DNA of 49,658 nucleotides from NCBI GenBank assembly GCA_944320795.1, contig CALUIU010000023.1, positions 1 through 49,658 on the forward strand, given 5' to 3'. The translations under genes and the position numbers were made by a program. The DNA is from Candidatus Paraprevotella stercoravium (GTDB taxonomy: Bacteria > Bacteroidota > Bacteroidia > Bacteroidales > Bacteroidaceae). The first letter of the stretch is position 1. Every line of letters starts with the position of its first letter. This document shows positions 30,339 to 32,878 of this stretch, in pieces. Below the pieces are notes generated by a model, which saw only the letters and a program-made list of their open reading frames with translations, searched no databases and was not told where the DNA came from.

Positions 30339-30791
30339 TTATACAGAGAAGCACAAAAAAGGGATTAAAGAAAAGCCTACTACCAGTATGATGTATAGGG
30401 CACCTATGATGAGAGAGGCGATCAGTCCCCACAATGTCCACTTCTTTGCCTGATTAGAGTAATATTCCGCCATGTCGTATTGTCCGCTCAAATACAGGTT
30501 TTCCACTTTTGTGGCGTTGATGATACCTACGATTCCAAACGGCAGACAGCAGAAAATGGTAACCAAGATAGATTCAACGAGCCATGTTTTGGGCATAATC
30601 CGGATATTTTGTGGCGGTTCCGGAGGGGTCTGTTGCAATATATCTGTCAGATCTGCTATTTCTGCTGCTTTTTTCCAGTCGCTCATGCCGGTACACCACA
30701 CCATGGTATTTCCCGTTATTCCTTTCTGAATCAGTTCTTCTTTCTGAAAGGGGCCTTGCTTGACATTATTTACTAAGATGTAATATTCCAT
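30339..30791 (-). CDS. GYF-domain plus CD225/dispanin membrane protein
   Basis: A 150-residue protein with an N-terminal GYF_2-type domain (about 1-50: YYILVNNVKQGPF, KGITGNTMVWCTGMSDWKKA), a proline-rich linker (TPPEPP at 55-60) and a CD225 region from 66 (ESILVTIFCCLPFGIVGIIN, loop, second membrane segment at about 120-140). GYF domains bind proline-rich peptides, so this may recruit a partner to the membrane. It is the first gene of the trio, 16 bases before the shorter CD225 gene. A -7 box lies about 30 bases upstream. Confidence 0.88.
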   Translation of the reverse strand: MEYYILVNNVKQGPFQKEELIQKGITGNTMVWCTGMSDWKKAAEIADLTDILQQTPPEPPQNIRIMPKTWLVESILVTIFCCLPFGIVGIINATKVENLYLSGQYDMAEYYSNQAKKWTLWGLIASLIIGALYIILVVGFSLIPFLCFSV

Positions 30792-30828: not shown

Positions 30829-30961
30829 AGAGTTTGTTTTGAAAAAAACGAAAATCCGGCTCTATATTCTTTTGTTCATTCTGTTCCTTTTCAGATTATT
30901 TGTTCCGTAGGAACAGATTTGATATGCCGTTATAGAGGTAGAAAAAAGCGGGTGAGTATCG

Positions 30962-30992
30962 CTTGCAGAATTCATAAATATGTGTATCTTTG
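30962..30992 (+). promoter_or_regulatory. Promoter for the queuosine operon
   Basis: CTTG (30962-30965), 19 bases, TATCTTTG (30985-30992) followed by C. Transcription should start near 30998, at the foot of the leader hairpin. Confidence 0.65.
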
Positions 30993-30997
30993 CATCT

Positions 30998-31054
30998 GCA
31001 TTGCCCGAGGGTGATGCGGAATGAGTGCTTGTAACCTCTTTAAAAACAAGAAAT
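30998..31054 (+). ncRNA. Candidate preQ1-I-type riboswitch
   Basis: The whole 57-base leader of the queuosine operon is structured. A 5' hairpin (GCAT 30998-31001 with ATGC 31014-31017, CC/GG inside) is followed by an H-type pseudoknot: GAG (31023-31025) with CTC (31036-31038), extended by A-T pairs around a T-T mismatch; a 10-base loop TGCTTGTAAC; an A-rich tail TTTAAAA; then ACAAG (31046-31050) pairing back to CTTGT in the loop. Element order, loop length, the C ending the loop (the ligand-pairing C in known preQ1-I RNAs) and the tail resemble the Thermoanaerobacter aptamer. The last pair is 4 bases before the start codon, suggesting translational control. GAGG (31007-31010) can instead pair with CCTC (31035-31038), a possible alternative state. 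Confidence 0.6.
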
Positions 31055-31741
31055 ATGAACGAAAAGAAAACCGTGAGTGTATCCTTCATGTTGCTGGGGA
31101 TACTCTTCTGTGTTTGCCTGATTTCGGCAAACCTTTTAGCAACAAAACAAATCATGTATGGTCCGCTGAACATCACAGCCGCCATTATTGTATTCCCGAT
31201 TTCTTATATCATCAACGACTGCATCGCCGAGGTGTGGGGATTCAAGCGTGCGCGTCTGATTATCTGGACCGGTTTCGTCATGAACTTTATTTTTGTGCTC
31301 TTCGGTGCGCTGGCCGACTGGATACCGGGTGCTCCGTATTGGAACAATGAGGAGGGCTTCCACAATCTGTTCGGACTGGCTCCGCGTGTGGCCTTTGCTT
31401 CCTTCCTGGCTTTCCTGTGCGGTTCTTTCCTGAATGCCTATATCATGAGCGCCATGAAGATTGCTTCAAACGGTAAGAACTTTTCGCTTCGTGCCATTCT
31501 TTCCACTCTGGTGGGCGAAACAGCCGATTCGCTGATCTTCTTCCCGCTAGCTTTGGGCGGTATCGTACCTTTTAAGAATCTGCTTTGGATGATGTTCTGG
31601 CAGATTACGTTGAAAACCGCCTATGAGATTGTGATTCTTCCGGTAACCATCCGTGTGGTGAAATATGTGAAGAAGACCGAACATGTGGATGTGTACGATC
31701 GAAAAATTTCTTATAACGTATTAAAGATTTCTGACTTATGA
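31055..31741 (+). CDS. Queuosine precursor transporter (YhhQ/VUT family)
   Basis: A 228-residue inner-membrane protein with about six hydrophobic segments, of the YhhQ/VUT (DUF165) family, which takes up queuosine precursors such as preQ0 or preQ1. [13 protein letters not shown] near 25-37, [17 protein letters not shown] (about 48-64) and [14 protein letters not shown] are family hallmarks. The frame opens ten codons earlier with an ATG at 31025, but that lies inside the candidate riboswitch; the ATG at 31055 gives the usual N-terminus. Its stop overlaps the queC start by four bases. Synthesis (queC, queF) and uptake genes are thus under one leader. Confidence 0.9.
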
Positions 31742-32412
31742 TGAACCATGAGACGGCCCTTGTTGTATTCAGCGGCGGGCAGGATTCTACAACCTGTCTG
31801 TTTTGGGCCAAAAAACATTTCAAGAAAGTTTATGCGCTGAGTTTCGTTTACGGACAGAAGCACCAGCAGGAAGTGGAAATTGCGCGTACGATAGCCCGTG
31901 AGGCTGACGTGGAATTCGAGGCTATGGATGTGTCTTTCATCGGTCATCTGGGGCGTAATTCGCTTACCGATCCTACGATGGTGATGGATCAGGAGAAACC
32001 TGCCGACAGTTGTCCCAACACGTTTGTGCCCGGACGCAACCTGTTTTTTCTGAGTATCGCCGCGGTCTATGCCCGCGAACGCGGCATCAATCATCTGGTG
32101 ACGGGTGTGTCGCAGACCGACTTCAGCGGTTATCCCGATTGTCGTGACAACTTTATCAAGAGTCTGACCGTGACGCTGAACTTGGCGATGGAGGAGCAGT
32201 TTGTGATTCACACTCCGCTTATGTGGATTGATAAATGCCAGACTTGGGCTTTGGCTGATGAGCTGGGAGTGCTTGATCTGGTGCGTGAACGGACACTTAC
32301 CTGTTATAATGGAGTTCCCGGAGACGGATGCGGCCACTGTCCGGCCTGCAAACTGCGTCGTGAGGGACTGGAAAAATATCTGGAACAAAAAAAGAACAAG
32401 GAAAATGAGTAA
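31738..32412 (+). CDS. queC: 7-cyano-7-deazaguanine synthase
   Basis: A 224-residue ATP-dependent enzyme that turns 7-carboxy-7-deazaguanine and ammonia into preQ0. The PP-loop SGGQDS is at 12-17. The zinc site near the C-terminus is [19 protein letters not shown] with four cysteines. [12 protein letters not shown] and [15 protein letters not shown] are conserved substrate-binding parts. Two Met codons open the frame; either start gives a normal protein. It overlaps the upstream transporter by four bases and queF by eight. queD and queE are not in this window. Confidence 0.97.
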
Positions 32413-32878
32413 TAGCGAAAGAGAAAAGGAAGGATTGCAGTCGCTCGGAAAAACCACACAGTATCGTCAGGACTATGCGCCCGAGGTGCTGGAGGCTTTT
32501 CAGAACAAACATCCTGAGAATGATTATTGGGTACGTTTCAACTGCCCTGAGTTTACCAGTCTTTGCCCCATTACCGGGCAACCGGATTTTGCGGAAATCC
32601 GTATCAGTTATCTGCCCGACCAGAAGATGGTGGAAAGCAAGAGCTTGAAACTGTATCTTTTCAGTTTCCGAAATCACGGTGACTTTCACGAAGACTGTGT
32701 GAATAAAATCATGAAGGATCTGATCCGTCTGATGGATCCCAAGTATATTGAGGTAACCGGTATCTTTACCCCGCGTGGCGGTATTTCCATTTATCCGTTT
32801 GCCAATTACGGCCGGCCGGGAACACGCTACGAGCAGATGGCCGAATACCGCCTGATGAACCACGACCTGAAGCTGTAA
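32405..32878 (+). CDS. queF: NADPH-dependent 7-cyano-7-deazaguanine reductase
   Basis: A 157-residue single-domain (YkvM-type) reductase that converts preQ0 to preQ1, the base inserted into tRNA. The catalytic cysteine C54 and aspartate D61 lie in [14 protein letters not shown], and the QueF motif ESKSLKLY is at 78-85, with His91 after it. The frame is open far upstream inside queC; the ATG at 32405, overlapping queC by eight bases, gives the standard length. Its stop codon lies in the loop of a palindrome shared with the opposing dnaX gene. Confidence 0.96.

Follow-up and report, generated by a model that had tools for sequence, protein, structure and literature searches.

The subtype models of the preQ1-I riboswitches reportedly go back to McCown et al. 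2014. In the parts of PMC11625349 available to us, an AC before the 3′ strand of helix P1 defines type II, and a G5-C16 floor and a C as the specificity base are described. Type II is said there to be distributed much as type I is, the phyla of the latter including Bacteroidota, and for the Tte aptamer an action on translation is given, with only two of its four P2 steps being canonical. Bacteroidetes are naturally without Shine-Dalgarno sequences, and initiation in this phylum is described, in the available part of PMC6847099, as tuned by mRNA structure and upstream bases such as an A at -3.

Here we analysed a queuosine operon of Candidatus Paraprevotella stercoravium, which lies in a 49,658-nucleotide stretch of DNA that we call, as a whole, the window. 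Judging from sequence, the leader RNA at 31022-31050 is very probably a preQ1-sensing switch of this known type. We hold it highly likely that the yhhQ-queC-queF leader contains, in this RNA, a preQ1 riboswitch of class I type II and that it would act as a ligand-driven translational OFF switch, for which we infer the ligand, the affinity, the direction and the level of control. The features of the locus are as follows.

30985 to 30992, forward strand: Bacteroides-type -7 promoter element TATCTTTG, read in the sequence against what we take to be the Bacteroides-type -7 consensus; TTG at 30963-30965, 19 nt upstream
30995 to 31020, forward strand: 5′ hairpin P0, 11 bp, ending 2 nt 5′ of P1 (fold)
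31022 to 31050, forward strand: whole pseudoknot, predicted preQ1-I type II aptamer (covariance model R1 built here)
31023 to 31025, forward strand: P1 5′ strand GAG, pairing with 31036-31038, its last G being the G5 equivalent (sequence read, covariation)
31026, forward strand: conserved U (U6 equivalent), first base of L1 (U in 78 of 78 aligned matches)
31028 to 31031, forward strand: P2 5′ strand CUUG, pairing with 31047-31050 (sequence read, covariation)
31035, forward strand: putative specificity C (C15 equivalent) with an A directly 5′, the type II AC (AC before the P1 3′ strand in 78 of 78 aligned matches)
31036 to 31038, forward strand: P1 3′ strand CUC (sequence read, covariation)
31039 to 31046, forward strand: A-rich L3, UUUAAAAA (five A invariant in 78 of 78 aligned matches)
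31047 to 31050, forward strand: P2 3′ strand CAAG, with the start codon 4 nt further on (sequence read)
31055 to 31741, forward strand: yhhQ, Vut_1 family queuosine-precursor transporter (Pfam PF02592, E 3e-47)
31738 to 32412, forward strand: queC (Pfam PF06508, E 2.7e-82)
32405 to 32878, forward strand: queF (Pfam PF14489, E 1.8e-34)

The pairings in the window follow the order P1-L1-P2-L2-P1′-L3-P2′ of an H-type pseudoknot. The parts that a preliminary description of this DNA had named, namely a P1 of GAG/CTC, a 10-base loop ending in C, an A-rich tail and a P2 four bases from the ATG, can all be read directly in the sequence, where the loop is the 10 nt at 31026-31035 and its last base a C. 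P1 is indeed as short and interrupted as described there, with only 3 perfect pairs and a U.U mismatch (31022/31039) between these and two more possible A-U pairs. The proposed P2, CTTGT/ACAAG, holds for the four pairs CUUG/CAAG and not for the fifth, U31032-A31046, which is not conserved because the base after the G of CUUG varies while the A is fixed. The alternative GAGG/CCTC pairing that had been suggested as an extra layer did not stand, GAGG being present in 1 of the 12 Paraprevotella leaders. As a separate observation, an out-of-frame AUG at 31021-31023 overlaps P1: such an AUG opens a mini-ORF (MSAW-stop) in 8 of the 12 Paraprevotella leaders, its frame continues into yhhQ in the window and its twin L009, and it is absent in 2 of the 12.

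The AC directly 5′ of the second P1 strand places the window unit in class I type II. Type I was rejected, as it requires UC at this place and 31034-31035 reads AC. The earlier identification as preQ1-I is supported, being largely right, and gains in precision; binding of preQ1 by the window unit is putative. The end of the window's loop, GUAACC, equals that of Tte in what we take to be the Tte sequence.

The stock model for the class, which the preliminary description had proposed as a check, gave a negative answer: RF00522 matched neither at gathering nor in two lax searches, with no match in the window at gathering and none with E ≤10 on the 221-base stretch around the site; all 12 weak matches found in the window's genome lie away from it. 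At gathering, it also matched 0 of 20 loci of relatives, and it came over its cut-off in 0 of 196 Bacteroidales genomes (sub-cut-off matches with E ≤0.05 in 11), whereas the B. subtilis control does match. Given this difference, and since the comparison described below supports the fold, we judge the miss to be a limit of the model and consider that a negative Rfam result means little in Bacteroidales. The models for preQ1-II and preQ1-III (RF01054 and RF02680, larger HLout folds) gave no match at gathering or at E up to 10. On the same bases, the lax Rfam scan gave SAM-II with 13.6 bits (E 4.1) and the L19 leader with E 9.2. The SAM-II riboswitch is an H-type pseudoknot as well; it was rejected for this site (RF01726, 13.6 versus a gathering score of 44 bits), which has a queuosine operon downstream.

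For the comparison of leaders, we sampled 80 named loci (the best 80 of 350) and 50 unnamed ones from the 202 family genomes with a match, L136 being a 100-base filler; the 129 leaders, the window's own included, comprise 115 distinct 120-mers, 105 distinct upstream 50-mers and 93 distinct 60-mers with a unit. The pairing grammar consists, in its 5′ half, of a P1 with at least 3 pairs ending in G, then U and a P2 strand ending in G, and, in its 3′ half, of AC before the C of P1′, an L3 with 4 or more A, and a P2′ that starts with C and pairs in 2 or more of its 3 further steps. We found that this grammar fits 105 of the 115 distinct leaders of homologous transporters (window included), which share ancestry and are not independent cases, compared with 20 of 2300 dinucleotide shuffles (0.87%). 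The 10 misses are L017, L018 and L069 with an insert in L2, L116 with an insert in L3, L020 and L050 with an intact P1 and a mostly noncanonical P2, L119-L121, which belong to a paralogue, and L130, the start of which is doubtful. Inserts in the aptamer loops look hairpin-like and leave the pocket bases and P1 in place (L017, L018, L069 and L168 in L2, L116 in L3). The paralogue is a second YhhQ copy in the window's genome (L119, G000:C19:5705-6379) and in two relatives (L120, L121), about 64-65% identical to the first, and no aptamer was found in the leaders L119-L121 when they were read with the pairing grammar.

Covariation was assessed in the alignment A4, which holds 36 chosen distinct units (32 of the 70 distinct scan units, plus 4 identified by eye). 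Units of the Bacteroides type, with CUAG/CAGG in 55 leaders, were left out because the aligner set their longer L1 out of register. Paired cells amount to 96.5% in A4 versus 83.8% in shuffles, cells changed on both sides to 27 versus 8.1 and the covariation score to 0.268 versus 0.077, with 0 of 500 shuffles reaching each of these values, while the pairs with two-sided change (4 versus 2.5, 23 of 500) and the further pair types (6 versus 4.8, 108 of 500) are weak measures, and, the sequences being related, the shuffles overstate significance throughout. In P1, pair 3-19 is AU in 23 units and UA in 13, and another pair is CG in 24, AU in 8, GU in 1 and UA in 1, with 2 unpaired; P2 changes from UA to CG in 3 rows and from UA to GC in 1 row, with 8 of 144 cells unpaired. 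Structures slid along A4 pair 17-57% of the cells. The covariation that had been named as a check is therefore present in both P1 and P2, and the loop C and a P2 strand are likewise kept across Bacteroidales. An earlier version of the alignment, A2, with one mistyped row, gives the same covariation picture; the first MAFFT alignment, A1, had P1 out of register and was excluded from the pair counts. Bacteroides-type CUAG/CAGG units carry an A.A step in P2, found in 24 of 77 units in a rough, anchor-based parse that has 42 ambiguous cases and was used solely for the approximate share of A.A at the second P2 step.

The covariance model R1 was made from A2 with sequence and P1, without the pseudoknot, and includes the window unit as one of its rows; on that unit it scores 42.7 bits (E 5e-8), the next match in the genome having 17.7 bits (E 1.25). 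R1 matches 78 of the 80 named loci (best 80 of 350), each in the transporter leader, and L060 and L082, which are absent from the match list, are yet grammar-positive. Across the 78 matched loci of these best 80 of 350, the P1-closing G, the next U, the C16 equivalent, five A in L3, the P2′ C and the final G are invariant, and AC stands directly 5′ of the P1 3′ strand in 78 of 78. Judged by these comparative tests, and setting the Rfam score apart, the window holds a preQ1-I type II riboswitch.

The same fold could nevertheless serve another ligand, with the Bacteroidales branch sensing another 7-deazapurine (preQ0, queuine or CDG), an idea that arises from the position of the element before a transporter and queC/queF. 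The distance of the branch from the Rfam preQ1 model, which at gathering missed it in 20 of 20 loci and 196 of 196 genomes, would be in line with this, but the residues by which class I recognizes preQ1 are kept, namely the specificity C, the U of L1 and the G-C floor, and we regard a changed ligand as unlikely. According to the available part of PMC10622847, type III, unlike type II, strongly prefers preQ1 over preQ0, so that type II may accept preQ0.

Next to the class assignment, we examined where such units occur. An R1 scan of 198 Bacteroidales genomes at E 0.05, run with filters that lose weak matches, gave 39 matches in 34 genomes, 30 of them before yhhQ-like genes (the window's included) and 7 before queC-like genes, these genes having been named by eye from sequence, not by Pfam. 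In five genomes, yhhQ and queC are each preceded by one unit. Two R1 matches, L214 and L216 (E 0.006 and 0.017), look like chance and were rejected. Over 247 genomes across the phylum at E 0.01, R1 matches 3, all in the window's own family. Other Bacteroidales have type I-like units, with UC before CUGUC and sub-cut-off RF00522 scores, 5′ of queC-like genes (L249, L250, L251 and L253). The queC leaders L197, L210 and L193 differ in that the first long queC-like ORF was found 86, 169 and 86 nt after the aptamer, respectively, and the start call or the control mode may therefore be different there. A search for phage copies with two patterns in viral_contigs gave 0 matches.

The operon of transporter, queC and queF named in the preliminary description is confirmed by Pfam, which gives Vut_1/YhhQ, QueC and QueF downstream of the leader. 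The nearest named relative of the window's transporter, among the best 80 of 350 named loci, is that of a Paraprevotella MAG, with 99% identity, which places the window in Paraprevotella. A gene for a small GYF_2 plus CD225 membrane protein lies divergent to the operon at 30339-30791 on the minus strand. Between 30850 and 31150, we found no sigma-70-type promoter and no terminator-like site. The P0 hairpin is the strongest local fold (30994-31060: MFE -18.4, z -3.36). A hairpin of at least 5 bp that ends 0-3 nt before P1 is found in 70 of 105 distinct upstream 50-mers, compared with a mean of 22.8% in shuffles, and one at a control position 8-11 nt away in 24 of the 105; as the same test finds no 5′ hairpin in 35 of 105 leaders, we take it to be an optional accessory. 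Kissing between the hairpin loop GAAUA and the L1 UAUUC in Bacteroides was considered and found unsupported because each motif also occurs alone: 80 distinct leader pieces contain GAAUA in the loop in 21 cases, UAUUC in L1 in 32 and both in 15.

Of 93 distinct leaders, 90 have 2-6 nt between the end of P2′ and the start codon, and 50 have an A at -3, more than any other base. With P2 ending this close to the start codon, and with no terminator near the leader, translational control is favoured, and translation is most likely shut off without a Shine-Dalgarno sequence. According to this model, a plentiful 7-deazaguanine precursor (preQ1, perhaps preQ0) would pair with C31035 between P1 and P2, upon which P2 would close and the A-rich L3 pack along P1. 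The resulting compact knot just 5′ of the AUG would keep ribosomes from loading, and both uptake and synthesis of the precursor would fall. Under scarcity of the precursor, the operon would be translated, with both the CAAG strand and the A-tract free.

Alternatively, the element could act mainly on transcription, through either pausing or termination, and the 5′ hairpin could belong to the expression platform. The frequency at which this hairpin abuts P1 (70 of 105 leaders versus 22.8% in shuffles) and the long distances to the ORF in the three queC leaders are in line with such a mechanism, which we nonetheless find quite improbable: the hairpin lies 5′ of the aptamer and escapes detection in a third of the leaders (35 of 105), the stretch from 30850 to 31150 has no terminator-like site, and P2 keeps its 2-6 nt spacing to the start codon in 90 of 93. 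The chances are very remote that the element acts in cis as the target of a regulatory protein, or is an intrinsic pseudoknot with a ligand-independent effect on translation. A fold of the H type next to a start codon could presumably act alone, but unpaired bases matching the class I pocket are strictly conserved and the element occurs at two different queuosine genes. As an explanation, chance pairing within an A-rich leader is practically negligible, being already contradicted by the comparison (0.87% of shuffles versus 105 of 115 leaders, and covariation), despite the short P1 of the window and the SAM-II and L19 leader models that touch the same bases at E 4.1 and 9.2.

The preferred reading, a type II preQ1-I switch acting on translation, extends to a more elaborate arrangement in g15, a sister genus in the same family. 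Its 45 genomes include 32 with the transporter, of which 30 loci were taken and 29 leaders were readable (L160 is without an upstream stretch). We found two or three pseudoknot units in 24 of the 29 yhhQ leaders (L139-L159, L161, L165 and L167). The unit finder reports three units in 15 leaders, two in 9, one in 4 and none in 1; of 870 shuffled versions of these leaders, 4 give two units. Inspection by eye shows an imperfect third unit within the gap of the doubles L144 and L159, and one unit with an insert in L168, the leader scored as having none. The spacer measures 0 nt in 35 of 39 gaps and 3, 4, 29 (L159) and 38 nt (L144) in the others; with no spacer in most gaps, stacking is possible between the P2 of a unit and the P1 of the unit that follows.

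P2 varies along the array in a compensated manner, with CCUG/CAGG in 14 of the 15 first units of triples and CUUG/CAAG in 27 of 28 last units, L145 having CUGG/CCAG. Middle units are often CCAG/CCAG, and their folding is less certain since only the outer steps are canonical. Among 36 distinct neighbour pairs, a count that includes L144 and L159 across the missed middle unit, 4 would allow full pairing of the upstream P1 with the downstream P1′, and 1 has both helices interchangeable. Neighbours thus mostly differ in the letters of P1 and P2, and mispairing is rarely possible.

A tandem pattern matched 22 of 399 family genomes, 20 of them in g15; outside it, L239 proved to be a single unit and L238 to be without an aptamer, and an extra site in a g15 genome, L226, has no aptamer either. 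The 3 matches among 395 genomes across the phylum (L169, L170 and L171) had no aptamer when read, and none of the 80 named loci (best 80 of 350) has more than one unit within 150 nt. We think it likely that the g15 element is an array of two or three preQ1-I type II pseudoknots before yhhQ, with candidate stacked ligand sites. Should each unit bind, the leader would form a rod with as many as three ligand sites, and the A-rich region of initiation would become buried step by step; if true, this would make a steep, pseudo-cooperative OFF switch in bacteria that initiate without Shine-Dalgarno sequences.

A 2022 review places PreQ1-I in its Table 3 among the classes not found in tandem (PMC9481103, as far as available to us), and the g15 arrays contradict that table. 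Among the papers listed for the topic in the open-licence literature, including the available parts of PMC9481103 and PMC11625349, we found no report of a tandem preQ1-I; as far as these papers show, the arrays would be the first case of a preQ1-I riboswitch in tandem. As a very small natural system, they lend themselves to measuring whether stacked aptamers sharpen a response. Taken together, our results probably add the Paraprevotella queuosine operon, and by comparison many of those of gut Bacteroidales, to preQ1-I control; as a group, the Bacteroidales members escape the standard Rfam model. With its 30 nt, the unit may serve as a test case for a riboswitch closing translation where ribosomes skip Shine-Dalgarno pairing.

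Compared with known systems, the locus shares with preQ1-I type II (RF00522; Thermoanaerobacter tengcongensis, Bacillus subtilis) the H-type pseudoknot, the U after P1, the AC, the G-C floor, the A-rich L3 and the queuosine genes, and the noncanonical P2 steps of the Tte aptamer fit the Bacteroides CUAG/CAGG units with their A.A step. Unlike the RF00522 systems, the window escapes RF00522 and its P1 has only 3 strict pairs; furthermore, the Bacteroidales P2 strand CAAG/CAGG adjoins the AUG in a phylum without Shine-Dalgarno use, a 5′ hairpin frequently abuts P1, some relatives have inserts in L2 or L3, and one genus has arrays. With preQ1-I type I, the locus has the pseudoknot and the gene context in common, but AC, not UC, before the P1 3′ strand. 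SAM-II (RF01726) likewise forms an H-type pseudoknot and has the best Rfam E-value at the site, with a score 30 bits below gathering. Finally, the g15 leaders resemble the tandem riboswitches (c-di-GMP-I, glutamine, SAM-I and others) described in the available part of PMC9481103 in repeating like units in one leader, but differ from them in that the units are about 30 nt long and mostly abut without a spacer.
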